A stretch of 35,978 nt of DNA, from the IMG/VR virus record IMGVR_UViG_3300042922_000383, positions 1 to 35,978 of that record; one strand, 5' to 3'. This stretch comes from a virus. Below the pieces are notes generated by a model that saw only the letters and a program-made list of their open reading frames with translations, was not told the origin of the DNA and made no database searches. Positions 149-35,195 of the stretch are shown piece by piece. Position numbers and translations under genes: made by a program. How positions within the stretch are numbered: the first letter of the stretch is position 1; every line of letters begins with the position of its first letter.

Positions 149-1271
149 ATTTTGCCACAACATATAATTTTTGAATTGTATCTGTAATAATTTCATCGTG
201 GTTAGGCATTGCGTGGCTGTACAATTCTAAAGTATGAGTTTGCTTGCTATGACCTAATCTTTTTGCAACGTCAGAAAGTGCTACATCGCCAGTTGCTAAT
301 AATTCCGTTGCATGGGTATGTCTCAATACGTGAAAATTTCTATATGGAACATTTGCATGATTTTCATCAAGTAAGGTTTTCCAAACTCTTTCGAAATTTC
401 GAGGAGCAATAGGAGTATCATTTTTCGTAACAAAACAAAGTTTTTCTTGCTTGAGGTCTAAATTTTTAGTTTTGGCTTTAAGCTTTTTTAATTCATTCAT
501 ACATTCTTCTGTAATTTTAATTTTTCTGATTGAAGCCTTAGTTTTAGGAGTTTCAATTATCAATCCTAAAGAACCAGAACATTGTAATGATCGGCAAATA
601 TGAACAGTAGAATTAAATAGACTAACGTCACGCCACTGTAGCCCTAAAACTTCGCCTAAACGCATTCCTGTATGAGTTGCAAGTAGTAACATAGGATAAT
701 ACTTTTTAAAGATGCTATCAGCCTTGCAAGAAGACAATATAGTTTCAATTTCTTTTTTAGTAAACGTTTCAATTTGCTTTTTCTCAAACTTTGGCGGGGT
801 AACAACTGTCATAATGTTTTTTTGAATCATTTCAAGTTCAAATGCTTTATTATACATATCTTTTAATAGCTTATGAACCTTTGCGATCGTGCAATTAGAA
901 AGGGCGGGTAATGTCTGGTATAACTGCTGTACTTGAAGCGGTTTTAAATCTTGCAATTTAACACCTGCAATTAAAGCTAGATGCTTCGCTAGGCTTGTAT
1001 AGCGTTCATATGTTCGTTGCTTTACCGTATCTTTCTTATAAGTTGTTAACCATTGCAATGTCCATTCCCCAACAGTAAGATCAGACGGATTTACAAACGT
1101 TCCTGTATGCATGTTATGCAATTGTTCTGTTTTCCATTTAACTGCTTCTTCCTCTGATTTACATCTTTTAAATAATCTTTTTCCTTCTGGTGTAGTTATG
1201 GAAGCGCGATAAGAGTCGCGTGCTTCATCATAAGTTATACCACCTTCGCCATTTGAACGTTTTTTTGCCAT
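147..1271 (-). CDS. int: Tyrosine-recombinase phage integrase
   Basis: 374-aa site-specific recombinase that would integrate the phage circle at a tRNA-Arg gene and, with an excisionase, excise it. Residues 1-60 look like an AP2-type arm-binding domain (GEGGITYDEARDSYRA), about 65-160 are the SAM-like core-binding domain, and 170-370 the catalytic domain. Visible catalytic residues: R204 (TGMRLGE), a lysine near 243-245, H314-x-x-R317 (HVLRHTH), H341 (LGHS) and nucleophile Y351 (LELYSHA). Length is normal for Bacillota phage integrases. The ATG at 1271 follows AGAAAG on the minus strand. The gene reads leftward and ends 102 bp from the attP core, the usual int-attP arrangement. Confidence 0.96.
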   Translation of the reverse strand: MAKKRSNGEGGITYDEARDSYRASITTPEGKRLFKRCKSEEEAVKWKTEQLHNMHTGTFVNPSDLTVGEWTLQWLTTYKKDTVKQRTYERYTSLAKHLALIAGVKLQDLKPLQVQQLYQTLPALSNCTIAKVHKLLKDMYNKAFELEMIQKNIMTVVTPPKFEKKQIETFTKKEIETILSSCKADSIFKKYYPMLLLATHTGMRLGEVLGLQWRDVSLFNSTVHICRSLQCSGSLGLIIETPKTKASIRKIKITEECMNELKKLKAKTKNLDLKQEKLCFVTKNDTPIAPRNFERVWKTLLDENHANVPYRNFHVLRHTHATELLATGDVALSDVAKRLGHSKQTHTLELYSHAMPNHDEIITDTIQKLYVVAK

Positions 1272-1432
1272 GAATAATCACTACTTTCTAATTATTTTAA
1301 AATTCTTGCAGGACTTTTGACTTATATCGCTAATTAAATATACTTTTATGCAGAAAAATTTGTAAACTTTTACAACTGGTTACTTTTGGGCGAATTGTGT
1401 AGAATATTTTCGAGAGGTTTATCGCGCTGGCG

Positions 1433-1669
1433 GTGAATGTAGGCTGCTGGCGTGATGTTGTGAAAAATAATATTAAAATACTTCGCCTAAAGAAAAGATG
1501 GACTCAAAAAGAGTTGTCTGTACACACAAAAGAAATTGATCAAGCTGGAAAAGGATTAACACAATCGACAATATCTGATTTAGAAAAGTACCATTTTACA
1601 GTAAAAGGTAGAAACTTAAAACTGCTAATGATCGTTTTTGAAGTAGACAAAGACGAAATATTAATTTAA
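1433..1669 (+). CDS. Short XRE-type helix-turn-helix protein
   Basis: 78-aa protein, nearly all one HTH_XRE fold: NIKILRLKKRWTQKELS, then LTQSTISDLEK as the recognition helix, then a C-terminal helix. No other domain. It lies between leftward int and the leftward CI-like gene but reads rightward, so it has its own control. The first in-frame start is GTG 1433, 16 nt after GAGAGG; GTG 1460 (giving MKNNIKILRLKK) would be a cleaner domain start but lacks an evident SD. It may act as a second lysogeny regulator or control int; role inferred from fold and place only. Confidence 0.7.
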   Translation: MNVGCWRDVVKNNIKILRLKKRWTQKELSVHTKEIDQAGKGLTQSTISDLEKYHFTVKGRNLKLLMIVFEVDKDEILI

Positions 1670-1682
1670 GGAGATGACCAGT

Positions 1683-1706
1683 ATGTCTACATTTTTAACC
1701 TCTTAA
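1683..1706 (+). CDS. Seven-codon leader ORF (MSTFLTS)
   Basis: An ATG nine bases after a strong AAGGAG (1668-1673, overlapping the stop of the XRE gene) opens a 7-codon ORF. Its stop codon (1704-1706) enters the 5' arm of the terminator at 1705-1740. Translation ending there could interfere with hairpin formation, as in translated leader attenuators. The SD and position are seen; the regulatory role is inference. Confidence 0.3.
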   Translation: MSTFLTS

Positions 1707-1740
1707 CTCATTCCTTGCTTGGAGTGGGTTCTTTTTTATT
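1705..1740 (+). terminator. Rho-independent terminator after XRE gene/leader ORF
   Basis: 1705-1714 pairs with 1721-1730 (10 bp with two G-U pairs) around loop TTGCTT, followed by CTTTTTTATT. Confidence 0.75.
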
Positions 1741-1770
1741 AGCGGATATGTTGATGCCGGGAGGGAAAAT

Positions 1771-1866
1771 ATGAAAGCACTTATTTTTGAAATGATTAGA
1801 CCAATCAAGGATGAGAAAAAATTGAAATTAATTTACCTTTTTATCAAAAATGTTATAAAAAATTAA
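1771..1866 (+). CDS. 31-aa small protein
   Basis: ATG 1771 lies 7 bases after GGGAGG, a strong SD. The product MKALIFEMIRPIKDEKKLKL... ends in a hydrophobic/basic helix (LIYLFIKNVIKN). The KLKLIYLFIKN pattern resembles short helical proteins or C-terminal tails found beside phage repressor genes, but I assign no function. It sits downstream of a terminator, so expression needs read-through or its own promoter. It converges on the CI-like gene across a shared terminator. Confidence 0.55.
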   Translation: MKALIFEMIRPIKDEKKLKLIYLFIKNVIKN

Positions 1867-1877
1867 TATAAAAATTA

Positions 1878-1913
1878 AAGGACTGGATTTATAAAATCTA
1901 GTCCTTTTTATTT
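1878..1913. terminator. Bidirectional terminator between the 31-aa gene and the repressor
   Basis: AAGGACTGGATT (1878-1889) pairs with AATCTAGTCCTT (1895-1906) with one G-U. T-rich tracts follow in both directions, so it can end the rightward small gene and the leftward repressor, whose TAG (1898-1900) lies inside the stem. Confidence 0.75.
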
Positions 1914-2287
1914 TGTTGATCATTAAATAATTTCATGGCAATTTTTTCGAGTTCTTTCCATTCGTTCTCATCTAATTTACTAAGCAAAGATGCAAATTTT
2001 TTAGGAAAATCACTTTCATCTTTTTGCATTAGTTTTGCTGCCCAAATCGTAATTTCTTCATCGCGATCAAGTTTATGCATCATATCCCCTTCACCAGTAC
2101 GAAGCCAGTGCTCGTTGATATCGAATTTTAAACATAACAATTGGATAAATGGATTAGTAGGTGGAACTCTTCCTAATTCAATATTTGAAATAGCATCGCG
2201 AGAAACACCGAGGATTTTACCAAAAGCTTCTTGTGAGGTTTTTTGGGGTAAGGACTTTCGAACTTGTTTAATTCTTTCATGAATCAT
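1898..2287 (-). CDS. CI-like XRE repressor without a peptidase domain
   Basis: 129-aa helix-turn-helix repressor, the likely lysogeny maintenance protein. HTH_XRE spans residues 1-65: RIKQVRKSLPQKTSQEAFGK, then LGVSRDAISNIELGRVPP as turn and recognition helix. The rest is helical and acidic. It has no S24 peptidase region, so RecA-driven self-cleavage is not expected. The ATG at 2287 is chosen because AGGTGGTGAT precedes it (2291-2300); an upstream in-frame start (2314) would include this SD. It diverges from the early operon across a region with three operator-like repeats. C-terminal pattern DENEWKELEKIAMKL is common in Bacillota phage repressors. Confidence 0.85.
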   Translation of the reverse strand: MIHERIKQVRKSLPQKTSQEAFGKILGVSRDAISNIELGRVPPTNPFIQLLCLKFDINEHWLRTGEGDMMHKLDRDEEITIWAAKLMQKDESDFPKKFASLLSKLDENEWKELEKIAMKLFNDQQNKKD

Positions 2288-2309
2288 ATAATCACCACCT
2301 TTTAAAAAT

Positions 2310-2338
2310 ATCATACACTAAAAAAATGTGAAAATCAA
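2310..2338 (-). promoter_or_regulatory. PRM-like promoter of the repressor gene
   Basis: On the minus strand, TTGATT (2338-2333), a 17-nt spacer, then TATGAT (2315-2310), 22 nt before the repressor ATG. The -35 box lies inside operator-like repeat O1 (2328-2341). Confidence 0.65.
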
Positions 2339-2403
2339 CACAAAAACAATTATAAAAGTGTTGACGTACTCAAAAAATGAATATATAATGTGAATATCAA
2401 CAC
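2328..2403. promoter_or_regulatory. Three operator-like repeats of the immunity switch
   Basis: Related 14-mers: GTGAAAATCAACAC (2328-2341), GTGTTGACGTACTC (2358-2371, inverted half-site order) and GTGAATATCAACAC (2390-2403). All share GTGTTGA or its complement plus an imperfect opposite half. They overlap the PRM -35, the PR -35 and the PR start point respectively, as expected for repressor operators. Confidence 0.7.
2361..2389 (+). promoter_or_regulatory. PR-like early rightward promoter
   Basis: TTGACG (2361-2366), 17-nt spacer, perfect TATAAT (2384-2389). Start would be near 2396, inside the third operator-like repeat. Drives the early operon starting at 2440. Confidence 0.85.
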
Positions 2404-2439
2404 AGAATGAAATAAATACCAGAGAAAGGAATGATAAAA

Positions 2440-2616
2440 ATGGAAGCTGTGAGCATTGATGTGAATGTTGAAGCAAGAGGTTTAAATGAAAATGAAAAAA
2501 AAATTCTTGGTGTATTTGCAGGGCTACTGCCAAAACTTAATGCTAATGAGCAAGAAAAGCTGCTTTATTTTGGCGAAGGAATAGCATTTGTAAAAAAGCA
2601 GGGAAGGCTAGCCTAA
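2440..2616 (+). CDS. 58-aa early protein in the cro position
   Basis: First gene of the rightward early operon. ATG 2440 is chosen over ATG 2431 because it stands 9 bases after GAAAGGA, while 2431 abuts the SD. The product starts MEAVSIDVNVEARGLN and contains LNANEQEKLLYFGEGIAF. It is acidic and probably helical at the C-terminus, and I see no HTH, so it is not an evident Cro. Its C-terminal half resembles the KLLYxGEGxA pattern seen in small Bacillota phage proteins. Function unknown. Confidence 0.65.
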   Translation: MEAVSIDVNVEARGLNENEKKILGVFAGLLPKLNANEQEKLLYFGEGIAFVKKQGRLA

Positions 2617-2628
2617 TAAAATTTAAAT

Positions 2629-2674
2629 ACTGACTTACCAACAGCTTTCGCACAGAAACAGTTGATAAGTCAGT
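2629..2674. other. Long inverted repeat upstream of the Xis/MerR-like gene
   Basis: A 14-nt arm (ACTGACTTACCAAC) is repeated inverted with one mismatch 18 nt away (GTTGATAAGTCAGT). No T tract follows on the + strand. It is an operator or an mRNA hairpin; the MerR-like product of 2699 could bind here. Confidence 0.5.
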
Positions 2675-2698
2675 TAATAAAAGAAAGAAGGTAATAAA

Positions 2699-4110: not shown

Positions 4111-4313
4111 ACTAAAACCATACATAAAATTGTTTAATTTAATTATAAATTATGTGTGGTAAAAGGTCAAGGAAATCAAGGCTTTTACAGCCTATTGTAT
4201 CTTGATAATTAGTATTAATCTTTCGACAATTAGATACAGATTACAAATATTAGCATATCCAATATATAAAATAATATGCAATATTTATAAAATTGATTAC
4301 AGGAGAGTTTGCT
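4111..4313. other. Hairpin-rich AT leader of rep; candidate origin region
   Basis: This gene-free stretch holds two further inverted repeats: 4118-4127 with 4150-4159 (10 bp, one G-U) and 4246-4258 with 4274-4285 (AATATT, bulged A, GCATAT against ATATGC, AATATT). The second lies just before the rep SD. HUH initiators nick in hairpin or ssDNA structures, often near their own gene, so this is the natural place to look for an origin. No nick-site consensus was recognised. Confidence 0.35.
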
Positions 4314-5057
4314 ATGCCATACATAAGAGAAAAAATAAAAGCTGGTAAGCAAAAAGAAGTAAAAGTTTATCATGCATATAAATATCAATCAAAAAAAGCT
4401 AGTAGAAGTAAAAACGTTGAAATCACAGCCGAAGAAATGGCGAAAATAAATACTTATAACGCGGAAAGAAAACTTCGGATTTTACTAAATGCCAATTTCA
4501 AAGAAGATGATCTGTATTTGACTTTGACCTACAAAGAGGAAACTCCAGATGCAGCAGAAGCAAAAAGTTGTCTTGCGAAGTTCACTAGAAAGTTAAGAAA
4601 TTTTTATAAAAAAATAGGAAGCATGCTGAAATATATTGCCGTTACCGAGTACAAGAAAAAAAGAATCCATCACCATATGCTAATAAATGCAAAATCAAAA
4701 GTAAAGAAAAGTGATATCGTGAAGTTTTGGCAACATGGATTTGTGAAAGTAGAGTTTTTCGGAGGAGAACCAGACGATTGTTTAAAACTCGCAAGCTATT
4801 TTATCAAAGAAACAAATAACACTTTTAATACAGATGAAAAAGTGCATGGGCTTCGCTGGATTGGCAGTAAAAATTTAATTCATCCAGTGCCAGAGGTCAA
4901 AATAGTAAAAGCCGATTCATGGCGTGACGATCCTAAAGCAGATAAAGGCTATTACATAGATATATCAAGTATAAAAACATGGCGTACAAATGACGGTTAT
5001 ATGTGCCAGTTTTACCGAATGATTAAATTGGAGCCAATACCATCATGGCGGCAGTAA
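4314..5057 (+). CDS. HUH-type rolling-circle replication initiator (Rep)
   Basis: 247-aa endonuclease that would nick one strand at an origin and attach covalently to the 5' end to prime rolling-circle replication. Motif 1 LYLTLTY at 67-73; metal-binding HUH motif IHHHML at 118-123 (H119, H121); catalytic motif SYFIKE with Y162 and K165, a single-tyrosine type. The LRHP-like/PEVKIVKADSWR stretch (186-206) matches my memory of a Rep family common in Bacillota mobile elements and phages. ATG 4314 is used because it follows AGGAG; a TTG at 4293 would include the SD. No helicase domain is present and no replicative helicase, primase or polymerase gene is seen in the genome. The next gene overlaps its 3' end by 13 bp. 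Confidence 0.85.
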   Translation: MPYIREKIKAGKQKEVKVYHAYKYQSKKASRSKNVEITAEEMAKINTYNAERKLRILLNANFKEDDLYLTLTYKEETPDAAEAKSCLAKFTRKLRNFYKKIGSMLKYIAVTEYKKKRIHHHMLINAKSKVKKSDIVKFWQHGFVKVEFFGGEPDDCLKLASYFIKETNNTFNTDEKVHGLRWIGSKNLIHPVPEVKIVKADSWRDDPKADKGYYIDISSIKTWRTNDGYMCQFYRMIKLEPIPSWRQ

Positions 5058-5356: not shown

Positions 5357-5454
5357 AAAAGCCGTGTCCTTTTCGAAAACCAAATTCAAATACTTGCAAA
5401 AATGCTTTCAAAATAAATAGCGAACGAATAGGGGGAATAGTATGCGAACCGTAA
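5353..5454 (+). CDS. 33-aa cysteine-containing mini-protein
   Basis: Starts in an ATGA overlap with the zinc-ribbon gene and ends inside the start of recU, so it exactly bridges the two. Sequence MKKPCPFRKPNSNTCKNAFK..., with three cysteines. GGAGAAGGA lies about 12-20 bases upstream. The tight overlaps favour a real gene; the small size and imperfect SD spacing leave doubt. Confidence 0.4.
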   Translation: MKKPCPFRKPNSNTCKNAFKINSERIGGIVCEP

Positions 5455-5972
5455 CACAAAAACAAGCGTGGCAAAACAGAGTATCAAATGCACAAGGTCA
5501 TTTAATCGAGGGGAAAATAAAAAAGGCTTGCTTATATTATCAAGTTCAAGGGATTGCTGATATTGATAAAACACCAGAACCGTTTAAAGTAATTAAAAAA
5601 CTTAAAAATGGTACATGCCTTGTCAGACCGACTAGAGATAAAGCACAACCAGATTTTAAAGGTACATTGAAAAATGGTACAAGCATCATCTTTGAAGTAA
5701 AAAGCACCATGAAAGAATCAATTAGTAGAAGCGCATTAACGGAAAATCAAGTAAACGTATTACAAGCTTATCAACTAATGGGAGCGCAGAGTTTTGTTTG
5801 TGTGTCAATACAGAATGAATTCTTCATGATTCCTTGGATTATGTGGAGAGATATGAAACTTATCTATGGGCGGGCATCGTTGAAACAAGAAGACATACAA
5901 GAATATAAAGTACCATACCAAAATGGCATTATGTTTCTGCATCACATTTTAAAAGCGAAAGAAGGAAAATAA
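5442..5972 (+). CDS. recU: RecU-like Holliday junction resolvase
   Basis: 176-aa nuclease of the RecU family (PD-(D/E)XK fold) that resolves branched recombination intermediates. Visible: NAQGHLIEGKIKKAC near the N-terminus as in RecU (family: N-x-x-G-x-x-x-E), PDFKG with D71, and FEVKST with E85 and K87, then an aromatic C-terminal part (FFMIPWIMW). Length is close to phage RecU homologues. GGGGG precedes the ATG. It fits a recombination step in replication or packaging-concatemer resolution, and it stands one base before parA, so the two are in one transcript. Confidence 0.85.
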   Translation: MRTVTQKQAWQNRVSNAQGHLIEGKIKKACLYYQVQGIADIDKTPEPFKVIKKLKNGTCLVRPTRDKAQPDFKGTLKNGTSIIFEVKSTMKESISRSALTENQVNVLQAYQLMGAQSFVCVSIQNEFFMIPWIMWRDMKLIYGRASLKQEDIQEYKVPYQNGIMFLHHILKAKEGK

Positions 5973-5973
5973 A

Positions 5974-6720
5974 ATGAAAACAATATCATTGATAAATCTT
6001 AAAGGCGGAGTAGGAAAGACAACAGTAGCCGTAAACACCGCACATATATTAAATAAACTATATGGGGCGCGTGTACTTCTTATAGATAATGATAAACAAG
6101 GCAATGCAACAAGTTTCTTTAAGGCAAAACAAGAAGATCAAGTAACCATATCCGATATTTTAGCCAATTTACAAACGGATATAACCGAAGCAATCCAAAA
6201 AACAGCCTATGACAATTTAGATATTATAGCTTGCGACTACTCATTAGAAACAGCCATACAAATGGTAATGGAAGATACTCTTAACCCTCAACACAACCGC
6301 TATGAAAAAGCACTAGCAAAAATCAAAGATAACTATGACATATGTATCATAGATAATCCACCGGATAAAAACATAGCGGTCTTAAATTCACTAGCAATCA
6401 CCGATGAAGTGATTATAGTTGCAACGCCAGATGAATACAGTTTGCAAGGCATGAAAGAAATGCAAGAGTACATAGATCACGCAAGATTTTACAAAGGAAA
6501 TTTATTGTTTCGCGGTTGTTTACTCAATCAATTTATAAAAACGTCAAACAGTTTCAAAATAAAAGCAAAAATAAAAAATCATTATCCAGTGTTTAATACT
6601 AACCTTCGCTACACAAAAGATAAATTAAATATCAAAGTGCCGATATTAGAGCTGTCACCTAGAAGCGGCTTTGCAATTGATATCAAAAGATTTGTTAGAG
6701 AACTAATAGGAGAAAAATAA
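5974..6720 (+). CDS. parA: ParA/Soj-type partition ATPase
   Basis: 248-aa Walker-type ATPase for segregation of low-copy replicons. Deviant Walker A KGGVGKTT at 10-17, Walker A' LLIDNDKQGNAT around 35-46, and Walker B CIIDNPP near 126-132. It has no N-terminal HTH, so it resembles Soj/type Ib rather than P1 ParA. Preceded by AAGGAAAATAAA and one base after recU. It is followed by a 19-bp palindrome and ParB, giving a complete parA-site-parB module. Confidence 0.93.
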   Translation: MKTISLINLKGGVGKTTVAVNTAHILNKLYGARVLLIDNDKQGNATSFFKAKQEDQVTISDILANLQTDITEAIQKTAYDNLDIIACDYSLETAIQMVMEDTLNPQHNRYEKALAKIKDNYDICIIDNPPDKNIAVLNSLAITDEVIIVATPDEYSLQGMKEMQEYIDHARFYKGNLLFRGCLLNQFIKTSNSFKIKAKIKNHYPVFNTNLRYTKDKLNIKVPILELSPRSGFAIDIKRFVRELIGEK

Positions 6721-6741: not shown

Positions 6742-6758
6742 AATTGGAGTGAGTGAAA

Positions 6759-7739
6759 ATGGCAATGTTGCCAAAACGTAATATATCAACGTGGTTAAAC
6801 AGTCAATCACAACCGCAAGAAAAACAGGAAGAAATAAATCTTCCTGTCAAGATGATAAGTGTCTATGATCTTATACCAAATCCGCTAAACTTCTATGAAT
6901 TAAACGATATGGAAGAATTAGAAACCGCAATCGAAATACAGGGCGGAGTAACAACAAGCCTTGAAGTAAAAGCGGTTGAAAACGGTAAGTTCATGGTAGT
7001 TGCTGGTCATAGACGAAGACAAGGCGTAATTAACATACTTCAAGGAGAAAATGAAAAAAACATTAGTGACAAAGTTCCATGTATCGTAAAAGAATACACA
7101 AAAAATCAAGAAATAACCGCGCTTATCTTTTCAAACAAATATCAAAGAGTGCGTACACAAACAGAAAAATTGAAAGAATTTCAGATATTGAAACCGATTC
7201 TTAAAGAAATATATGAAGATGAAAAAGAAAAAGGCTTAATAACTGGTAGATTTAGAAAGTTCTGTGCTGACTTTTTCGAAATTTCAGAAGCAACCGTCCA
7301 CCGCATGAACGCTATGGAAAAGTTGACAGAAGAAGTAAAACAAGGAATTGAACAAGGCGATATAACACCAACAGCCGCAATCCAATTAACCAGTCTTTCT
7401 GCCAGTGAACAAAAAGCAGTGTATGAGGATACCACAAAGCAAGGTACAGCAACCGTAAAAACAATTAAAGAAACAATTAAAGAAACCATAAAGCAAGAGC
7501 AACCACCACAGCCAGAAATGAGCGAAACCGAAATAAAAATAGTTGCCTTAAATGATGTAAGGAGAATCATTGTCAGAGAGATTGAAAAAGTACTAATTTA
7601 CAATCAAGATTTTGGGCGGGTAACAGTAAACAGTATCAAGCTAGAACGTTTAAACCTACTTAAACAAGTATTAGAAAATGAACTAAATGATTTAAACGGT
7701 CAAAACATTTTTGATGATGGCGGTGAAGATGATGTGTAG
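6759..7739 (+). CDS. parB: ParB-like partition protein
   Basis: 326-aa ParB/Spo0J family protein that would bind the centromere and stimulate ParA. N-terminal ParB/sulfiredoxin-like domain (about 30-130): IPNPLNFYELNDMEELETAI, then VVAGHRRRQG as the GERR-like CTP-binding box. Central HTH region: TGRFRKFCADFFEISEATVH, followed by GIEQGDITPTAAIQL. The C-terminal part is helical with acidic end DDGGEDDV. ATG 6759 is 9 bases after GGAG; a GTG at 6753 is too close. parB overlaps the next gene's start. Confidence 0.9.
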   Translation: MAMLPKRNISTWLNSQSQPQEKQEEINLPVKMISVYDLIPNPLNFYELNDMEELETAIEIQGGVTTSLEVKAVENGKFMVVAGHRRRQGVINILQGENEKNISDKVPCIVKEYTKNQEITALIFSNKYQRVRTQTEKLKEFQILKPILKEIYEDEKEKGLITGRFRKFCADFFEISEATVHRMNAMEKLTEEVKQGIEQGDITPTAAIQLTSLSASEQKAVYEDTTKQGTATVKTIKETIKETIKQEQPPQPEMSETEIKIVALNDVRRIIVREIEKVLIYNQDFGRVTVNSIKLERLNLLKQVLENELNDLNGQNIFDDGGEDDV

Positions 7740-8088: not shown

Positions 8089-8184
8089 ATGTGGTACTGG
8101 TATGTATTATTTGGTTTAATGATGGGCGGGATGGTAGGAATTTGGATAATGTGCGTATTCATTTCTGGAAGCGATAGAGGGTGA
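8089..8184 (+). CDS. 31-aa single-span membrane mini-protein
   Basis: GAGGAG lies 8 bases before ATG 8089. The product MWYWYVLFGLMMGGMVGIWI... is one hydrophobic helix with a short polar tail (SGSDRG). It is followed within 6 bases by another well-initiated gene. The strong SD and operon spacing support it. Confidence 0.65.
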   Translation: MWYWYVLFGLMMGGMVGIWIMCVFISGSDRG

Positions 8185-8528: not shown

Positions 8529-9389
8529 ATGTTACTAGACAATACTCTGTTTGATAAAGTGAATAAAGTCCAAATAGCAATAGATCGCATTCGTGAATTT
8601 GAACCGCCAGAGGGTTACTATGTAGCATTTAGCGGTGGGAAAGATAGTATTGTTGCCCTTGACTTGGTAAAGCGCGCAGGAGTTAAATACGATGCACATT
8701 TTAACCTTACGACAGTTGATCCGCCAGAACTGATTTATTTTATTCGTAATACATATAAAGTTACTGGTAGAAAATCAAGGTACAAGCAAAGATTAAAAGC
8801 TGCTAAATTAATAGGTAAAAAAATACCGCCAGTGTGGTTAGACAATATAAAAATACATCATCCAGAAAAATCAATGTGGCAGTTGATACCAGAAAAGAGA
8901 ATGCCACCAACGCGGATTGTACGCTATTGTTGCCAAATACTAAAAGAGGGTGGCGGAAAAGGAAGAAGGGTAATAACAGGCGTTCGTTGGGCGGAATCAG
9001 TAAAGCGATCAAAAAGAAAAATGGTCGAGGTTTGTAATAAAGATGACACAAAAACTTATTTACATCCGATTATTGATTGGACTGATGATGAAGTATGGGA
9101 ATACATACATATGCGCAATTTGCCTTACTGCAAATTATATGACGAAGGATATCACCGGATAGGCTGCATAATGTGTCCGATGGCTGGAGCAAAACAACAA
9201 CAGCAAGAAGCACTAAAACACCCCAAATATGCAAGTGCTTATTTAAGAGCATTTAATAAAACTATTGAGCTAAGAAAACGTGATGGATTAAAAACAGACT
9301 GGAATAGTGGTCAAGAAATGTATGATTGGTGGATGTCGGATAAAAAGCACGATAAAGCCGATCCCGACCAAACTATTATATTTGAGTGA
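8529..9389 (+). CDS. PAPS reductase-family PP-loop protein with Fe-S-type cysteines
   Basis: 286-aa member of the adenine nucleotide alpha-hydrolase (PP-loop) family that includes CysH and DndC. PP-loop SGGKDS at 35-40 would bind ATP or an adenylyl sulfate. Cysteines C134-C135 and C213-x-x-C216 form a CC-X77-CxxC pattern like the [4Fe-4S] ligands of bacterial APS reductases. The C-terminal ECGLH-type redox motif of CysH is absent, so simple sulfate reduction is unlikely; sulfur transfer to nucleic acid or cofactor is more plausible. SD GAGGTG. It sits among small accessory genes with no dnd partners. Confidence 0.85.
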   Translation: MLLDNTLFDKVNKVQIAIDRIREFEPPEGYYVAFSGGKDSIVALDLVKRAGVKYDAHFNLTTVDPPELIYFIRNTYKVTGRKSRYKQRLKAAKLIGKKIPPVWLDNIKIHHPEKSMWQLIPEKRMPPTRIVRYCCQILKEGGGKGRRVITGVRWAESVKRSKRKMVEVCNKDDTKTYLHPIIDWTDDEVWEYIHMRNLPYCKLYDEGYHRIGCIMCPMAGAKQQQQEALKHPKYASAYLRAFNKTIELRKRDGLKTDWNSGQEMYDWWMSDKKHDKADPDQTIIFE

Positions 9390-11534: not shown

Positions 11535-11568
11535 GTTAAATAAATGATGGGCGGGTGGTGTACATGTA

Positions 11569-12324
11569 ATGCCAAGAGCAAGAAGTCCAAATAGGGATAA
11601 AGCTTTTGAAATATGGAAAGCCAGTAAAGGTAAAAAGAAAAACAAAGATATTGCTAGTGAATTGGGCGTATCTGAAAAGCTAATTTCACGCTGGAAACAA
11701 GAAGATTCGTGGAAAGAAAAATCAACTAAAAAATCTACTAATAGAAAAAGTAGAAATGATGAAAAAATAAAAAGAGAAAAAAAGCAGCAAGAAAGTTTAA
11801 AAAATAATTTATCAAAGTCAATTGAAGAAAATGACGAACTAACAGAAAAACAAAAACTTTTTTGTTTGTATTGGATTGATAACAGAAACGCAACACAAGC
11901 GTATTTAAAAGCACATCAATGTAGTTATAACACCGCGAGAACCGAAGGAAACTTAAACCTTACAAAGCCTTGCATAAAGCGAGAAATAGAAAAATTAAAG
12001 AAAATACGCAATAAAACCCTGATGTTAGACCCGGAAGATATAGTAGAAAAATACATGAAAATAGCATTTGCAAATATTACGGACTTCGTTATGTTTAGTA
12101 AAGATCAAGTTTGGGTTTATGGCAATGAAATGGTTGACGGTGGACTAATTTCAGAAGTTAAACAGACAAAAAGCGGTGTAAGTATAAAACTTGAAAATCG
12201 AATGAAAGCCCTTGAATGGTTATCAAATTATTTTAATATGAATCCGATGGACAAACATAAAATAATGTATGATAACGCTGTGCTTGATATACGAAAGAAA
12301 GAAGCAGAATCAAAGGACTGGTGA
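11569..12324 (+). CDS. terS: Terminase small subunit, PBSX/Terminase_2 type
   Basis: 251 aa. N-terminal HTH (KNKDIASELGVSEKLISRWK, about 23-43) for DNA recognition; a lysine-rich linker; then the Terminase_2 core: LTEKQKLFCLYWIDNRNATQ followed by AYLKAHQCSYNTARTEGNLN. The C-terminal part (ITDFVMFSKDQVWV) matches PBSX-type TerS. SD-like GGGCGGGTGG precedes ATG. Unusually, a second, P27-type TerS lies at 13245 next to TerL, so the division of labour is unclear. Confidence 0.8.
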   Translation: MPRARSPNRDKAFEIWKASKGKKKNKDIASELGVSEKLISRWKQEDSWKEKSTKKSTNRKSRNDEKIKREKKQQESLKNNLSKSIEENDELTEKQKLFCLYWIDNRNATQAYLKAHQCSYNTARTEGNLNLTKPCIKREIEKLKKIRNKTLMLDPEDIVEKYMKIAFANITDFVMFSKDQVWVYGNEMVDGGLISEVKQTKSGVSIKLENRMKALEWLSNYFNMNPMDKHKIMYDNAVLDIRKKEAESKDW

Positions 12325-13970: not shown

Positions 13971-15716
13971 ATGTTAGAAGTTTTAAGAATGAAATATCCG
14001 CAATCTTATTTGTTGGAGTATTGCCAAAAATGCAAGTCTGGTGAAATCGTTATAGGCAGAGAGTTAATGCTACAACTTGATATGCTTATTGAAAATTTCA
14101 GCGATCAAGATATAAAAATTGATTTTACAGATGCAAACAAGCGTATTGATTTTATCGAAACCAAATGTAAACATTCAGAAGCCCCTTTTGCTGGAAAACC
14201 TTTTTTACTAGCTTTATTTCAGAAAGCGTTCATTGAGTCAATTTATATTTTTCAAATATATGATGATGAACTAGAAATGTGGGTAAGAAAATATCAAGAA
14301 ATAATATTTTTAGTAGCCAGAAAAAACGGCAAGACTCCACTAATCAGTGCAATATGTTTAGCGGAGTTTTTTTGTGGGGAAATTGGAACAAAAATATTAT
14401 GCAGTAGTAATGATTATTCACAGGCTGACCTTGCTTTCCAAGCCATAAACAATATGAGGGAACAAAGTCCTTCGCTTGAAAAGGTAACAAGAAAAAATAT
14501 TAAAGGTATTTTCTTTGGCAATCCCAAACGGAAAAATAAAAAAGGTAAGTTTAGTTATCAAAATAAAGGGAACATCTTAAAAATATCTGCTAAAACTGGC
14601 GCAAAAGAAGGTAAAAATATTCGCGCTGGAATGGTTGATGAAATACATGAGTTAAAAGATAATACTTCTATCATGCCGATTAGACAAGCCTTATCAACTC
14701 AAAATAATCCAATATATTTTGAACTAACCACAGAAGGGTTTACCGATGATGGCTATCTAGATAATCGCTTAAAAGAAGCTAGGCAAGTGATAAATGGTGA
14801 GCTAGAAAGACCGCGTTTGTTAATATGGCTTTTCACACAAGATTCAGAAGAAGAAATTTGGCAAGATGAAGGTTCTTGGTATAAATCTAATCCTGGCTTA
14901 AAAATAATCAAGAAAATAAGTTTTTTAAGGCAAATGGTTGAAGAAGCTAAATCAAGCGCAAGTACAAAAGCGTTTGTGTTGGCAAAAGATTTTAATCAAA
15001 AACAAAATAGTGCAACTGCTTGGTTAACTGATGAAGATATAAACAACCCTAATTCTTTTGATGTTAACGAATTCAAAAATAAATACTATATAGGAAGTCT
15101 TGATTTTGCTGAAACTACTGATTTATGCAATGCCAAGGCTCTTTTTTATGACAAGGTGAAACAGCGTACATGTACGCTAACAATGTATTTTATTTGCGAA
15201 AACAAAGCAGATGCAATTTTAGAAGATGGCAATAAATTAAATCAAGAAAAGAAAAATTATCGTGAATGGGCGAAACAAGGACTAGTAACAATTTGCCCGG
15301 GGGATGAAGTTGACCCTGCCTTTATTGTTAAATGGTTTTATAGTCTATATGAAAACTATAAAATGTTGCCGTATAAAGTTGGTTTTGATAATTGGCATAG
15401 TACAGGTTTTAAAAATCTATTCGCTGAATATTTTGGTGAGGAAATTTTAGAAAGGATTGGTATGGATTACAATAGTTTATCCAATCCTATGCGATTATTA
15501 GAATCAGCATTAAAAAATAAAACGCTGATCTATAACAACCATGAAATTGATATATGGAATTTAAGGAATGTATCAATAAAAATGGATAATATAGGTCGCA
15601 TCATGCCAGTGAAAAAATTCAATCAATCTAAAAATCGGATTGATGGTGCTTTAGGATTTATAATAGCCTACGCAACATACAGCAGATTCAAATCTGAATA
15701 CATGGATAAATGTTAG
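13971..15716 (+). CDS. terL: Terminase large subunit (HK97/P27-type)
   Basis: 581-aa packaging motor and nuclease. Walker A variant VARKNGKT near 115-122, Walker B AGMVDEIHE near 218-226, and the motif LTTEG as coupling segment. Nuclease domain: SLDFAETTDL (about 374-383) with the first catalytic aspartate, and NRIDGALG (about 556-563) with the last. Length and motif order fit the Terminase_1 family associated with HK97-like portal and capsid. GGGAGG precedes the ATG; 13 bp to portal. Confidence 0.95.
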   Translation: MLEVLRMKYPQSYLLEYCQKCKSGEIVIGRELMLQLDMLIENFSDQDIKIDFTDANKRIDFIETKCKHSEAPFAGKPFLLALFQKAFIESIYIFQIYDDELEMWVRKYQEIIFLVARKNGKTPLISAICLAEFFCGEIGTKILCSSNDYSQADLAFQAINNMREQSPSLEKVTRKNIKGIFFGNPKRKNKKGKFSYQNKGNILKISAKTGAKEGKNIRAGMVDEIHELKDNTSIMPIRQALSTQNNPIYFELTTEGFTDDGYLDNRLKEARQVINGELERPRLLIWLFTQDSEEEIWQDEGSWYKSNPGLKIIKKISFLRQMVEEAKSSASTKAFVLAKDFNQKQNSATAWLTDEDINNPNSFDVNEFKNKYYIGSLDFAETTDLCNAKALFYDKVKQRTCTLTMYFICENKADAILEDGNKLNQEKKNYREWAKQGLVTICPGDEVDPAFIVKWFYSLYENYKMLPYKVGFDNWHSTGFKNLFAEYFGEEILERIGMDYNSLSNPMRLLESALKNKTLIYNNHEIDIWNLRNVSIKMDNIGRIMPVKKFNQSKNRIDGALGFIIAYATYSRFKSEYMDKC

Positions 15717-15729: not shown

Positions 15730-17019
15730 TTGATAGTTAACTATTTGACAAATCTATTAGCGAAATATAAACAAAAGCAGCAATTAAAAACGCTGACCTC
15801 AATTCTAAATGATGGGCGGGCAATATTTTCTAGCTTTGGCGAAGACGTATATATGTCTGACTTTGTGAATAACTGTATTGATCGTATCGCAACAGAGATA
15901 AGTAAAATAGATATTGTATCTGTAGTACAAAAGCCGGGTAGTATTCGTCAGCAGAATGATGATATTACAAGGCTTTTTCGTTTTAAGCCTAATCCACTAC
16001 AAACAACGAAAGATTTCCTTGCATGTTGCGAATGGTTAAGGCGTAAAGATCATAATTGTTTTATTTATCCTCAATATGATATTGTACTTGATGTTCAAGG
16101 CAATCCATACCGAAAATACACAGCGTTTTATCCGCTTAATCCTACACAAATAGAAATAGGCTTGGATGATTCTGAAAGCATTTGGGAAGTGAAATTTTAT
16201 TGGCGTGATGGAACATTTGATATATTGCCATATGCTGACCTTATCCATTTAAGATGGCGCAGAGGGAAAAACACAATTGTTGGCGGTGGAAATGATTACG
16301 GGCAACCAGATACAAAAGATTTATTGCATTCTGTTACTGCATTAGATCAGGTAATTCAAGGATTGCCTAAGTCGATTGAAGCTAGTTTAAAAATAACAGG
16401 TTTATACCATGTTAAAACACTAGTTGGCACTAGTGAAATAAAAACAGCTAGAGATAATTTCGAAGAACATATTTCTACTAGTAAAACGGGCATTGTTGCT
16501 ACTGATCTAGCAGGAGATTTTACCCCAATCAACATAAAAGCAGCGGAAATAAAACCAGAAACAATGGAATTTTTAAAATCAATCATTCGTAATAGATATG
16601 GAATTTCCGATGCGGTATTATCTGGAGATTATACAGGCGAACAGCATGGCGCATTCTATCAATCGTGCTTAGAGGATTTTATTGTAGAGTTTGAACAAGG
16701 TACAAGTGCTTGCTTGTTTACGCAACGTGAGCAAGACGTAGGTCATAGAGTGAAAGGATATTACAATAAGACAGCATACTTATCAACCGCGAATAAAATT
16801 GCACTTGCTACATTAGCGACTAATACAGGACTGAAAACATTAAATGAAATCAATGATATGTTTGGTGACGAACCTTTTGAGGGCGGGGATAGACGACTAC
16901 AATCACTTAATTTTACGAATGTAAATATTGTTGATGCTTACCAATTGAATATGGCTGGTACAAACGATACAGGTACAACAAATAACGACACAGGAAAGGA
17001 TGATTCCAATAATGCCTAA
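15730..17019 (+). CDS. Portal protein, HK97 family
   Basis: 429-aa ring protein through which DNA enters the head. Typical features: DFVNNCIDRIATEISKIDIV near the N-terminus, then YPLNPTQIEI and YADLIHLRW, and the NRYGISDAVLSGDYTGEQHG wing/stem motif near 287-310. The C-terminus is low-complexity (NDTGTTNNDTGKDD). The start is TTG 15730, 9 bases after GGGGGTGAG. Its 3' end overlaps the protease reading frame by a few bases. Confidence 0.93.
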   Translation: MIVNYLTNLLAKYKQKQQLKTLTSILNDGRAIFSSFGEDVYMSDFVNNCIDRIATEISKIDIVSVVQKPGSIRQQNDDITRLFRFKPNPLQTTKDFLACCEWLRRKDHNCFIYPQYDIVLDVQGNPYRKYTAFYPLNPTQIEIGLDDSESIWEVKFYWRDGTFDILPYADLIHLRWRRGKNTIVGGGNDYGQPDTKDLLHSVTALDQVIQGLPKSIEASLKITGLYHVKTLVGTSEIKTARDNFEEHISTSKTGIVATDLAGDFTPINIKAAEIKPETMEFLKSIIRNRYGISDAVLSGDYTGEQHGAFYQSCLEDFIVEFEQGTSACLFTQREQDVGHRVKGYYNKTAYLSTANKIALATLATNTGLKTLNEINDMFGDEPFEGGDRRLQSLNFTNVNIVDAYQLNMAGTNDTGTTNNDTGKDDSNNA

Positions 17020-19599: not shown

Positions 19600-19866
19600 A
19601 TGGAATTAGATGAATTAAAAAGCACTTTAAAAGTTGATAGTGATGATCTTGACAGTACTCTTAGTATGTATCAAGTTGCAGCAGAAGAATATTTAGCTGG
19701 TGCTGGCGTAACCAAAGATTATACAAAAGGCTTATATAAACTAATCGTTACAGTGTTTTGCGGTGCATTGCTTGAAAATCCTACTTTACTAGAAGCGAAG
19801 GGCGGGTTAGATAGCGTTGGTATTACCTTTAATGCTATTGTTGCACAATTGAGGTTATCACAATGA
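19600..19866 (+). CDS. Head-tail connector, gp6-like
   Basis: 88 aa, all-helical pattern of the phage_connect family: MELDELKSTLKVDSDDLDST then AAEEYLAGAGV and ALLENP. HK97 gp6 and SPP1 gp15 occupy the same position after the capsid gene and form the adaptor ring below the portal. One base after the previous gene; it overlaps the next by 4 bp. Confidence 0.85.
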   Translation: MELDELKSTLKVDSDDLDSTLSMYQVAAEEYLAGAGVTKDYTKGLYKLIVTVFCGALLENPTLLEAKGGLDSVGITFNAIVAQLRLSQ

Positions 19867-32264: not shown

Positions 32265-33407
32265 ATGACAGTTACATTGCCAAGCAAAGAAAGTTTTACA
32301 GGTAATGTCACACAAGGTCAAGCTAAAGAAGCGTATGATCAGCTCGTTGATTTTATTGGTCAAAGTTTACCTGCCGATGGAACACCGGTTCAAGCAAGTG
32401 CTATTGCTAACACACCAAACGGCAATGTTACATCTACAACTGTACAAGATGCAATTAATGAAGTTGACAGCAGAATAGGTGCTAATCCTAGTTACCGCAA
32501 TTTACTTATTAACGGTAACTTTTTGTTTAGACAGTGGTCTACTTGGGGTGGCATAACGTCTTATCCAATAAATAGTGGTAGTGCTTATGGTTATTTCGAT
32601 AGATGGGTACTAGCTGGGGTAGGTAGCACTCTTAACACTACTCATCAAACTTTTGCATACGGGCAGCCTGAAATTCCTGACGATCCTTTTAACTATGGTA
32701 GGTTTACTGTAACGTCTGTAAACGGTGTTAATAATTATGCAAGTATTGCTCAACGAGTCGAATTTGCAGAGCAATACTCTAGTTCTACCCTTACTTATTC
32801 TTTTTGGGCTAAAGCAGACGCACCAAAAGATATCGCTATCGAGTTTATGCAAATTTTTGGTACAGGAGGTAGTTCTTCTGTTTATGGGATAGGCTCTACT
32901 AAATTTCATTTAACTACTACGTGGACAAAATACACCAGTACTGTAAACCTTCCAAGTGTTGCAGGAAAAACAATAGGTATTGGAAGTGCAGTAGGAATGC
33001 TAGTTTGGTTTGATGCAGGAAGTAACTTTAGTAGTCGTACTGCTTCTTTAGGACAACAAAGTGGAATATTTGATATGACACAGATACAGCTAGAAAGAGG
33101 TGCAGTAGCTACGCCTTTTGAAAATCTACCAGTACCACTCCAATATCAACTTTGCCAAAGATATTGTGAAACCGGTATATCCTATGGTATATCGTATGGT
33201 ATATCTACAACTGAAGCCCAGAGGGTTATAACACCTTATAAAATGACAAAAAGAATAGTACCATCTGTAGGCATTGCACAAATAGGAGGCGCTGGTTCTT
33301 CCCCAGGACTAACATTAAATGACTCTGGGATGTTCGTTGTAGGTTATACCTCAGTTGGCTCCAGTGTAGAAATGATATTTAAATGGCTGAGTAATGCAGA
33401 ACTATAA
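32265..33407 (+). CDS. Tail fibre/receptor-binding protein
   Basis: 380 aa with AAGGAGG SD. The N-terminal 75 residues include a short helical stretch (NVTSTTVQDAINEVDSRIG) as in fibre attachment regions. Residues about 78-290 fit the NLLINGNFLF-RQW ... YFDRWVLAG carbohydrate-binding jelly-roll often seen at fibre tips, ending IQLERGAVATPFE. A 12-bp in-frame repeat at 33174-33205 gives GISYGISYGIS. Thymine/cytosine use is higher than in neighbouring A-rich genes, compatible with module exchange. Confidence 0.8.
   Translation: MTVTLPSKESFTGNVTQGQAKEAYDQLVDFIGQSLPADGTPVQASAIANTPNGNVTSTTVQDAINEVDSRIGANPSYRNLLINGNFLFRQWSTWGGITSYPINSGSAYGYFDRWVLAGVGSTLNTTHQTFAYGQPEIPDDPFNYGRFTVTSVNGVNNYASIAQRVEFAEQYSSSTLTYSFWAKADAPKDIAIEFMQIFGTGGSSSVYGIGSTKFHLTTTWTKYTSTVNLPSVAGKTIGIGSAVGMLVWFDAGSNFSSRTASLGQQSGIFDMTQIQLERGAVATPFENLPVPLQYQLCQRYCETGISYGISYGISTTEAQRVITPYKMTKRIVPSVGIAQIGGAGSSPGLTLNDSGMFVVGYTSVGSSVEMIFKWLSNAEL
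33174..33205 (+). repeat. Short tandem repeat in fibre gene
   Basis: GGTATATCCTAT, GGTATATCGTAT, GGTATATC: two and two-thirds copies of a 12-bp unit, in frame (GISY). Copy number could vary without breaking the frame. Confidence 0.8.
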
Positions 33408-33419
33408 AAGGAGGTCAAT

Positions 33420-33758
33420 ATGGAAAAATATAAATTAACAAAAGATGAGAATATGATAATTCGATTATCTGACAATGTTTATATTCCACTTGTTGAAGGT
33501 AATTGCGACTATCAACAATATTTAGAAGATGTAGCAAATGGTGCTACCGTAGAACCAGCACAAACAACAGAAGAAATTAAAATTTCAAGACTAGTTACGC
33601 TTGATGCCGAATACGATCCACAATTTGATGCTTTAACGCTTGCTTGGGCTACTGCTAGTATGGATGGAGATACAGCAACAGTGACAGCACGGCTGGCTGA
33701 CAAGCAAGTACTTAAACAAGAATATCAAAAAAAAAGAGAGGCGATTATGAATGGCTAG
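33420..33758 (+). CDS. Fibre-associated/tail assembly protein
   Basis: 112 aa, AAGGAGG SD, directly after the fibre gene. N-terminus MEKYKLTKDENMIIRLSDNV is beta-like; the C-terminal half (ISRLVTLDAEYDPQFDALTL ... EYQKKREAIMNG) is helical. The same position and design occur for tail fibre assembly or DUF4376/XkdW-like proteins. Function inferred from position. Confidence 0.6.
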   Translation: MEKYKLTKDENMIIRLSDNVYIPLVEGNCDYQQYLEDVANGATVEPAQTTEEIKISRLVTLDAEYDPQFDALTLAWATASMDGDTATVTARLADKQVLKQEYQKKREAIMNG

Positions 33759-33879
33759 ACCTTATTGCTCTCAGTGTGGTGCAAAAAATGATTTGCAAGG
33801 CAATTGTACAAATACAACTTGCCCTAGAAATGTTCCAGAGACAACAGAAAATACAGAAACAACGACAAAGTCTGAATAA
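33751..33879 (+). CDS. 42-aa zinc-ribbon mini-protein
   Basis: ATG 33751 overlaps the previous stop and follows GAGAGG. Product MARPYCSQCGAKNDLQGNCT... has C6-x2-C9 and C19-x4-C24, a compact zinc ribbon, followed by a Thr/Glu tail (PETTENTETTTKSE). Its position after fibre genes is frequent for such mini-proteins; role unknown. Confidence 0.6.
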   Translation: MARPYCSQCGAKNDLQGNCTNTTCPRNVPETTENTETTTKSE

Positions 33880-33911
33880 GTGATATTTTGAATAGAGCGA
33901 GAGAACCGTGT

Positions 33912-33937
33912 GGACGTGAATAACGTCTATTTTTTTA
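33912..33937 (+). terminator. Terminator before the lysis block
   Basis: GGACGT (33912-33917), loop GAATA, ACGTCT (33923-33928), then ATTTTTTT. Confidence 0.6.
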
Positions 33938-33963
33938 TGCCGTTTTTGAGAGGAGGGGAATTT

Positions 33964-34137
33964 GTGGGTGATGATATAATTCAAAGACTTTTTAACAAAA
34001 TTGATAATCTATCTGATCGCTTGGCACGAGTTGAAACAATGCTGGAAGAACGTGAGAAGAAGCAGACGAACATTGCAGGCATAATCGCTTGGATAGCGAC
34101 GACAGCAATTGCGATATATGGCGCAGTACCTAAATAA
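33964..34137 (+). CDS. XhlA-like holin-associated protein
   Basis: 57 aa from GTG 33964, six bases after AGGAGGG. The protein starts MGDDIIQRLFNKIDNLSDRL as a coiled coil and ends in one membrane span (IAGIIAWIATTAIAIYGAV), the layout of haemolysin XhlA family proteins, which support holins and endolysin release. No second classic holin is evident nearby. Confidence 0.8.
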   Translation: MGDDIIQRLFNKIDNLSDRLARVETMLEEREKKQTNIAGIIAWIATTAIAIYGAVPK

Positions 34138-34158
34138 ATTTAAAGAGGAGATTTTAAT

Positions 34159-34674
34159 ATGAAGATTTGTATAAACGGTGGTCATTATCCGGGACTAGAT
34201 AGCGGTGCTTGCGGGAGCTATCTACAAGAAGCAGATGTAGTAAAAATTCTTATGCAAAAAGTTGCTGGTTATCTACGCAATGTAGGTTATGAGGTTCTAG
34301 AAGTACAAGAAAATGAACTTGCTGATATCACAAATGCTAGTAATGATTTTGGTACTGAACTATTCGTATCAATCCATTGTAATTCTGCCCAAAGCAACGA
34401 AGCAAAAGGAACTGAAACATTTTGTTATGATTTAAACGGTCAAGGTGCAATATTAGCACAATGCATACAAACACAGATCGTAAATAGTTTGGGTACTGTA
34501 GATCGCGGCGTAAAAGAAAGTAAAGGCTTATATGTGCTAAAGCATACTGATTGCACAGCTTGTTTAGTTGAAACAGCATTTATCAATAATGAAAATGATG
34601 AAAAATTATTATCAAGTAGACAAGATGACTTCGCAAGAGCAATTGCGCGCGGCGTTACTGATTATTTTCAGTGA
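34159..34674 (+). CDS. Endolysin: N-acetylmuramoyl-L-alanine amidase (Amidase_3)
   Basis: 171 aa zinc amidase cutting between MurNAc and L-Ala of peptidoglycan. Zinc and catalytic residues are visible: H9 (INGGHYPG), E24 (LQEAD), H73 (FVSIHCNS) and E138 (CLVETAF). The length equals the catalytic domain alone; there is no cell-wall-binding domain and no signal peptide, so release depends on the holin system. GAGGAG SD. It overlaps the next frame's first start codon. Confidence 0.92.
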   Translation: MKICINGGHYPGLDSGACGSYLQEADVVKILMQKVAGYLRNVGYEVLEVQENELADITNASNDFGTELFVSIHCNSAQSNEAKGTETFCYDLNGQGAILAQCIQTQIVNSLGTVDRGVKESKGLYVLKHTDCTACLVETAFINNENDEKLLSSRQDDFARAIARGVTDYFQ

Positions 34675-34691
34675 GAGGGGGTGATGAAAAA

Positions 34692-35195
34692 ATGGCAAAA
34701 GTAATATATGTTTTTGTGGGTGGCAATAGTAAAATAGATAAACTCATAACTGGCGTTTCTGGTGGTGATAAATCTCATGTAGCTATAAAAATATTTGATG
34801 GAATCTTAGAAAGCACAGGAGAAAGAGAAAATATTGACCCATATCCCGGCGTTTGGTTACATAGACCAGATAAATATAATAACAATCAATACGCTGAATT
34901 TGTAGCGGTAGAAATACCAGATATTGAAGGTTTTAAAGCCGAAGCTAGAAAATTATTAGGAACGCCTTACGGATATAGTGATTGTATTCGTACAGGCGTT
35001 TTTGATTTATTAGGAATTGAGATACCAGACAACGATTGGGTAATGGATTGCAGTGAATTAGGCACAAGATTAGCTAGGGCGGGTAAATTAGATATATTGC
35101 CAGATATCGAAGCTGGTTGTATAGACCCTATGCGACTTCGTAATGCAATACTTGATGGCGGATACGGCAAAATAATCAACTCTATTGCTTCATAA
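34692..35195 (+). CDS. Permuted papain-like hydrolase (YiiX/NlpC-related)
   Basis: 167 aa. H29 in KSHVAIKI precedes C120 in DCSELG; this reversed order is typical of circularly permuted NlpC/P60 (YiiX/YaeF-like) amidases. TPYGYSD (91-97) fits the segment between. ATG 34692 is chosen, 9 bases after GAGAGGGGG; ORF extension to 34671 includes that SD. Next to the amidase, it may be a second cell-wall hydrolase or an amide hydrolase acting on lipids. No signal peptide. Confidence 0.7.
   Translation: MAKVIYVFVGGNSKIDKLITGVSGGDKSHVAIKIFDGILESTGERENIDPYPGVWLHRPDKYNNNQYAEFVAVEIPDIEGFKAEARKLLGTPYGYSDCIRTGVFDLLGIEIPDNDWVMDCSELGTRLARAGKLDILPDIEAGCIDPMRLRNAILDGGYGKIINSIAS

Follow-up and report, generated by a model that had tools for sequence, protein, structure and literature searches.

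The stretch of DNA analysed in this study, referred to here as the window, is positions 1 to 35,978 of IMG/VR virus record IMGVR_UViG_3300042922_000383, and the subject of this report is the heptamer GGGCGGG, for which an earlier note on the sequence had claimed a strand-polar excess. Nine copies were found on the + strand, each at the coordinate given in that note, and CCCGCCC was absent. We present evidence that GGGCGGG is a real polar signal at the level of the DNA, and examine it as a candidate Chi-like site of a temperate phage. The copies in the window are as follows.

902 to 908, + strand: copy 1, within the leftward integrase gene (int), on its template side
5868 to 5874, + strand: copy 2, RecU-like gene, read Gly-Arg-Ala
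7614 to 7620, + strand: copy 3, ParB-like gene, read Gly-Arg-Val
8124 to 8130, + strand: copy 4, small open reading frame (ORF) 8089-8184, for which no PHROGs family was found; AATGATGGGCGGG is common to copies 4, 5 and 6
11549 to 11555, + strand: copy 5, outside genes, 20 bases before the start of the small terminase gene
15814 to 15820, + strand: copy 6, portal gene, common to 2 of 65 aligned portal loci (L061, L062)
16881 to 16887, + strand: copy 7, portal gene, in none of the aligned portal loci
19800 to 19806, + strand: copy 8, ORF 19600-19866
35077 to 35083, + strand: copy 9, ORF 34671-35195

A copy similarly placed to copy 5 was seen in the G159 prophage, at 15256 with the small terminase at 15277. 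The first and last 127 bases of the record (1-127 and 35852-35978) are exactly identical, so the record was read as a circular assembly, probably with a true length of 35,851 bases. The genes and features to which the text refers are listed below; portal, capsid and tail genes are also encoded.

1 to 46, + strand: core of the phage attachment site (attP), identical to the 3' half of a tRNA-Arg(TCT) gene
147 to 1271, - strand: integrase (PHROG 1, 4e-65)
4293 to 5057, + strand: replication initiator (Rep) of the PF23343 family, with HUH-like motifs by eye
5442 to 5972, + strand: RecU-like Holliday junction resolvase (PF03838, 5.6e-15; PHROG 843)
5974 to 6720, + strand: ParA-like ATPase (PHROG 164, 6e-52)
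6753 to 7739, + strand: ParB-like protein (PHROG 4715, 4e-34)
11569 to 12324, + strand: small terminase (PF03592, 3.9e-36), near which packaging would be expected to start
13971 to 15716, + strand: large terminase (TerL; PHROG 9, 2.5e-105), where the motif-rich region ends in relatives

The base composition of the window is A 37.2, C 14.9, G 20.1 and T 27.8%, which corrects the earlier estimate of about 18% each for G and C. Markov models of orders 0 to 4 gave 0.35, 0.55, 0.37, 0.94 and 1.37 expected + strand copies, in agreement with the excess first claimed, and order 5, which already contains most of the heptamer, gave 4.0. When words with at least five copies (at least four at order 5) were ranked by z-score, GGGCGGG led at orders 1, 2 and 4; at order 3 it came second, and at order 5 it fell to 11th place. 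In a codon shuffle, codons were swapped among synonymous positions, with the proteins and the codon pool kept, and intergenic DNA was remade; 500 such shuffles gave an expectation of 0.32 copies and a maximum of 3, against 9 observed. GGGCGGG was the top heptamer of this test with a -log10P of 10.1, and the best word of any shuffle reached 5.6. The second most over-represented heptamer was TGGTCAC, whose resemblance to integrase arm sites suggests that the shuffle test finds functional words. TGGTCAC occurs as direct repeats flanking attP (69, 94, 105, 35711, 35722, 35920, 35945, 35956), and these are likely the arm sites of the integrase.

The excess was specific to the word. The other G6C isomers numbered 0, 0, 3 (one within GGGCGGGG), 1, 0 and 0 on the + strand, and the reversed strand held a single copy of GGGGGGC. 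One-letter neighbours occurred 0 to 3 times, with three + strand copies each of GGGCGGA and GGGCGGC, near matches that had been noticed before. Against an order-2 model the best heptamer attained a -log10P of 3-7 in most other phage loci, and likewise in 20 host segments of 37-40 kb, compared with 9.5 for GGGCGGG in the window; the exceptions at 8 or above were GAAGCGG or AAGCGGA in L025, L033 and L037, and CGCCGAA in L022.

Relatives of the window were sought through its genes. Over all phyla, the closest terminase proteins were from Selenomonadaceae genomes (52-57%), and within the class Negativicutes from genomes G073 (66%) and G308 (64%); the nearest initiators within the class were those of G088, G089 and G090 (53-54%). 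The integrase scan gave one relative (28%), the tape-measure scan one local match and the ParB scan none. Matches to Rep were obtained in 45 of 380 Negativicutes genomes, of which 12 loci were taken, together with G094 and L140, and 5 of 13 TerL loci at 56-66% were added. The resulting 19 segments were thus selected by Rep or terminase homology, blind to the motif, and all were kept (G089 over its entire 11.8-kb piece). TerL was placed via a shared family in G088a, G088b, G090C6, G309, G328, G387 and L140; PHROGs confirmed two members of that family.

GGGCGGG was strongly enriched in these relatives taken together. The viral record L140/L236, the first relative reached through the initiator, held seven copies on one strand and none on the other. 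Upstream of TerL, GGGCGGG numbered 101 in the 19 segments (306.5 kb), where 10.3 were expected, with 3 in reverse, and 12 of the 19 showed an excess at P<0.01. Twenty control segments, taken from other terminase matches, contained 24 copies against 19.5 expected and 4 in reverse, and only one, G230, was enriched at P<0.01; G230 and a second control, G073 (560 bases used), are close relatives by TerL, truncated where their contigs end. With the window excluded, 14 early regions were pooled, and no heptamer ranked above GGGCGGG in them (105 against 8.7, reverse 1). The 15-segment early-region set (the window and these 14) and a 12-element TerL set omit G362, G377, G387, G251T and G181T, and the latter omits G089, G094 and G328 also. 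In host G308 the prophage of the window's type had 11 copies and two other prophages had 1 and 0 in 20 kb, so the word tracks the phage type and not the host alone. Two broader ideas were rejected: pooled related viral and genome contigs showed no general excess (71 against 57.8 expected in 116 loci, including L140 with its 7 copies), and alignment of the 65 portal loci ruled out conservation at fixed positions among portal relatives.

The distribution of GGGCGGG along the phage genome was uneven. The 12 enriched elements of the TerL set had 96 copies in 187.7 kb upstream of TerL and 14 in 182.1 kb downstream. Their pooled density was 0.3-0.8/kb in the stretch between 16 and 2 kb upstream of TerL, 0.04/kb in the last 2 kb before it and at most 0.17/kb downstream. 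In nine enriched elements the density was 0.55/kb between Rep and TerL and 0.29/kb left of Rep. In the window, five of the nine copies precede the terminase, or six when the sequence is read round the circle.

The form of the word argues for a cause at the level of the DNA. In 13 early regions, 106 of 300 GGCGG occurrences stood in the G_G context and the other 15 contexts had 8-22 each, which makes the heptamer the main unit. The flanking bases carried little information, and a longer consensus was rejected, since the AATGATGGGCGGG shared by three window copies was not general. At 81 of 94 sites the flanks were non-homologous; taken with the low flank information, this indicates that most sites arose independently. 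The window copies are read in three frames, with an antisense copy within int and a non-coding one at 11549, as described earlier. Over 15 elements the frames were used 23/31/36 times with one reverse copy; no computed ORF covered 26 of the copies, and 16 fell within opposite-strand ORFs, a few of these perhaps spurious; the clearest opposite-strand cases are position 902 of the window and positions 4383 and 4500 of L140. That copies use every frame and also stand in intergenic DNA and opposite-strand ORFs makes a protein or RNA cause unlikely. The proposal of a polar DNA signal with no protein-level cause is therefore supported and is replicated in independent prophages.

With moderate confidence, we favour the interpretation that GGGCGGG works as a Chi-like site, probably read by the host AddAB enzyme. 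The phage, apparently without an annealing recombinase or AddAB inhibitor of its own, would have its concatemers made or repaired through recombination by the AddAB and RecA of the host. AddAB recognizes Chi when the word lies on the strand with the 3' end at which the enzyme enters, so that + strand copies would protect the terminase-side end, no cos or pac site having been located. AddAB would enter a free terminase-side end or a broken replication tail, unwind leftwards and meet GGGCGGG on the strand whose 3' terminus lies at the entered end. At GGGCGGG it would halt degradation and load RecA, and the RecU-like resolvase of the phage may then finish the junctions. Its position between the origin and the packaging cut would explain why the early region has so many sites.

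Several observations are consistent with this scheme. The window ORFs scanned against Pfam and PHROGs gave no recombinase or inhibitor family. Among the 97 early ORFs of enriched elements that were scanned, mostly of 130-480 amino acids, no RecT, ERF, Rad52 or AAA_24 was found within the 25 of 33 Pfam families listed; RecU was found in 2 and SSB in 8, and initiators were also present. AAA_24, which we take to be a Sak4-like domain, was encoded by the non-enriched elements G331a and G251T. The cognate enzyme was present in the putative host genomes searched: all 16 had an AddA match above the cut-off and 13 an AddB match above it, the AddB matches of G362, G377 and G387 lying below the family cut-off. 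The AddAB Chi words AGCGG of B. subtilis and GAAGCGG of S. aureus, both shown by experiment, are short, asymmetric words that contain GCGG and act from one strand in hosts with AddAB; GGGCGGG resembles them in its length, its asymmetry, the GCGG it contains, its one-stranded occurrence (101/3 in the 19 segments) and the AddAB of its putative hosts, and differs in the word itself. A second parallel is the lambdoid Chi, GCTGGTGG. Bobay, Touchon and Rocha (2013; PMC3784561) report an excess of Chi in lambdoid phages that lack recombinases, with the sites concentrated between the replication genes and the terminase, and the 12 and 9 enriched elements described above show the same concentration. 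The lambdoid case differs in the word, in the enzyme (RecBCD, not AddAB), in the host class and in the excess of Chi in the E. coli chromosome. GGGCGGG had no clear excess in host chromosomes and is Chi-like in its sequence pattern. To our knowledge, no Chi word has been described for Negativicutes. Literature searches for GGGCGGG with Chi gave no match, and those for GGGCGGG with phage, or for Chi with AddAB and Veillonella, gave matches unrelated as listed; these searches have a weak bearing on that statement.

The host chromosomes supply evidence that weighs against a Chi function. The attP core was matched without mismatch in 3 of the 380 Negativicutes genomes (G094, G095 and G110), which points to the host group of the window phage; G094 and G095 are alike in GC content and skew. 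Expectations were taken from Markov models on sampled chromosomes. Leading/lagging counts were 15/4 in 400 kb of G088 (8.7-11.9 expected leading, or 1.3-1.7 times), 12/2 in 360 kb of G094 (8.1-11.2), 8/0 in 360 kb of G095 (6.9-10.2) and 7/3 in 200 kb of G310 (11.6-13.5), so that the G094, G095 and G310 samples were near or below expectation. Genome-wide, GGGCGGG/GGGGCGG/GGCGGGG numbered 155/199/174 in G094, 60/132/97 in G095, 358/447/358 in G110 and 288/312/243 in G088, and GGGCGGG did not exceed both isomers in G094, G095, G110 or G310. In the genomes tested, over-representation in the host chromosome was thus not found. The known enterobacterial Chi, by comparison, is enriched in the chromosomes of both E. 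coli and Salmonella (PMC3784561). A host-wide Chi or KOPS (FtsK-orienting polar sequence) role was rejected on a table of the 380 genomes, judged by eye, which showed no general excess over the isomers, although GGGCGGG exceeded both in a few. The earlier note had named a lack of skew in the host genome as grounds for refutation; host copies were skewed, but the G6C isomers as a set were also strongly leading-strand in the putative host chromosomes, and polarity alone is therefore weak evidence.

Other findings point the same way. GGGGCGG was weakly enriched in all four host samples (-log10P 1.7-2.7), so a G-rich relative of GGGCGGG may be what the host reads. The isomers were themselves raised in the 15 early regions, with 63 GGGGCGG and 43 GGCGGGG against 8.9 expected for each; 45 of the former lay within GGGGCGGG and 26 of the latter within GGGCGGGG, leaving 18 and 17 without overlap with GGGCGGG, and the two isomers combined show the same step at TerL. 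Four window copies lie in late genes. Seven of the 19 selected segments were unenriched (G328, G094, G251T, G181T and the Rep-bearing G362, G377 and G387). Phages of hosts with a known Chi were a weak positive control: GAAGCGG was in mild excess in phi11 (5/0 against 2.0) and 80alpha (6/0 against 1.7), and two lactococcal phages had 0 copies of the Chi word of their host. Lastly, a ParA/ParB pair, for which a Chi model has no need, was present in 9 of the 14 enriched elements and in none of the 24 non-enriched ones, a tally that set aside G094 and G328. The chromosome result, the weak known-Chi phages, the ParA/ParB link and the weak enrichment of GGGGCGG in the host samples are the reasons why our confidence is moderate and GGGCGGG is not filed as a proven Chi. 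A Chi-like site nevertheless fits best among the functions first offered for the word, with the host-genome excess not seen in the genomes tested.

The rival words in the host samples were also screened, using GC-rich polar heptamers of the four samples. GGGGCGG was found 51/1 in phage early regions, mostly as GGGGCGGG. GAAGGTG, at a -log10P of 1.7-8.4 in the host samples, was found 22/2 there, and the other top host words checked (e.g. TGGCGGT, TTGGCGG and GGTGCTG) were non-polar or much less polar in phages.

The ParA/ParB tally speaks for the alternative that a phage-encoded DNA-binding or partition function, for instance such a pair or a factor acting on single strands during replication, reads GGGCGGG, and the lack of a clear excess in host chromosomes and of enrichment in the two other G308 prophages would suit it. 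We regard it as rather unlikely. The pair is present without a significant excess in G094 and G328 (P 0.06 and 0.40), and the enriched elements G308T (11 copies), G307T (10) and G088a gave no match to the pair even by profiles, the sole ParB-like domain of G308T being part of a DNA methyltransferase fusion. Two weak ParB profile matches came from non-enriched elements, as did two ORFs with Pfam ParB_N. Known ParB sites differ from asymmetric, widely spaced words, and GGGCGGG is asymmetric, nearly flank-free and widely spaced.

It is improbable that GGGCGGG serves replication, for example as a strand-specific site for priming or for a primosome on the strand that a rolling circle displaces. Such a role would account for a polarity that is constant on both sides of Rep, and the HUH-like initiator (motifs by eye), the SSB proteins among the scanned early ORFs (8 of 97) and the lack of enrichment in elements that, by eye, have their own polymerase and helicase agree with it. 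The density drops sharply at the terminase, however; G308T, G307T and G087T have no Rep match, their genomes being absent from the 45 Rep-positive ones, and the Rep-bearing G362, G377 and G387 have no GGGCGGG upstream of TerL.

An RNA-level signal, for example a ribosome-binding or antitermination element, was suggested by several copies in relatives that by eye stand just before start codons, but we consider it very unlikely, given that copies occur in all three frames and that those in leftward ORFs (902 in the window, 4383 and 4500 in L140, 2504 in G310) keep to the + strand.

Guides for DNA translocases, which we take to be typified by the KOPS and SRS (SpoIIIE recognition sequence) words GGGNAGGG and GAGAAGGG, are G-rich and leading-strand as GGGCGGG is, and after tRNA-Arg integration in G094 and G095 the polarity of the phage word would equal that of the leading strand. 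A KOPS-like guide for FtsK, another suggestion of the earlier note, is nonetheless disfavoured to the point of being barely plausible: a KOPS would be in excess as well as polar along the chromosome from origin to dif, whereas the chromosomal copies were polar without clear excess, the isomers were similarly polar, and the excess of GGGCGGG belongs to some phage types and is concentrated in one phage region, the early region, rather than along host chromosomes.

Chance or composition, with GGGCGGG simply the top scorer among 16,384 words on a strand rich in G, is scarcely credible even for a word picked by eye with a null-dependent expectation (4.0 at order 5), in view of the shuffle maximum of 3 in 500, the best shuffle word at 5.6 against 10.1, and the replication in 19 segments selected without regard to the motif.

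Polar words of the same kind were observed in other groups. G362, G377 and G387, whose initiators are related, carry TGATGCGG instead of GGGCGGG (13/1, 19/1 and 14/0, in total 46/2), so another Negativicutes group has a different polar word. Relative to its reversed control, TGATGCGG was 2.6- to 9.5-fold in excess in 12 genomes of the G362/G377/G387 group and 1.2- to 3.0-fold in eight genomes of the other group, with 3.9-fold in G251 and 3.1-fold in G347. GAAGCGG was found 46/0 against 2-3 expected in seven loci, of which six belong to Clostridia-type genomes and some are perhaps near-duplicates, and was 0.8- to 2.9-fold over its reversed control in 11 Clostridia-type genomes; its excess in phages exceeds that in hosts, and an excess of phage over host is thus not unique to GGGCGGG. 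Both words contain GCGG, as does GGGCGGG.

Within the Chi-like reading, we put forward tentatively, as a possibility that we hold to be less likely than the reading itself, that GGGCGGG is a phage-specific attenuation word, the one best read by the host AddAB and not clearly selected by the chromosome. The use of Chi would then exploit a weakness of AddAB instead of a mark by which the host knows itself, and the GCGG-type word of each host group (GGGCGGG, TGATGCGG, GAAGCGG) would be readable from its phages. If the Chi-like reading is right, the Chi words that AddAB recognizes in uncultured hosts could be read simply from recombinase-less prophages, and the absence of a chromosomal excess would test the idea of Chi as a host self-mark.

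Some further observations were made in the course of the analysis. TGATGCGG was noted in the prophage loci L251, L252, L253 and L254 of G362, G377 and G387 and is frequent in the chromosomes too, making it a Chi candidate for that group. GAAGCGG (as the overlapping AAGCGGA in L033) was the top polar heptamer of L018, L025, L029, L033, L035, L036, L037, L038 and L312 (G347). The related phage contigs L074 and L073 carried the isomer GGGGCGG 9/0 and 5/0, and L308 (G328:C40) had 12 + and 2 - copies of GTTAGAC against 0.4 expected in 10.5 kb. In the G095 chromosome sample (L100-L116, L119), GTAGCACC was strongly over-represented and is likely a dispersed repeat. Two tRNA-Arg 3' ends lie 26.6 kb apart in G095 (G095:C1:1682563-1709247; L117, L118) with low GC between them, and this stretch is probably an element integrated at the same attB. 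A phosphoadenosine phosphosulfate reductase-like gene is located in the early region of the window, at 8529-9389.

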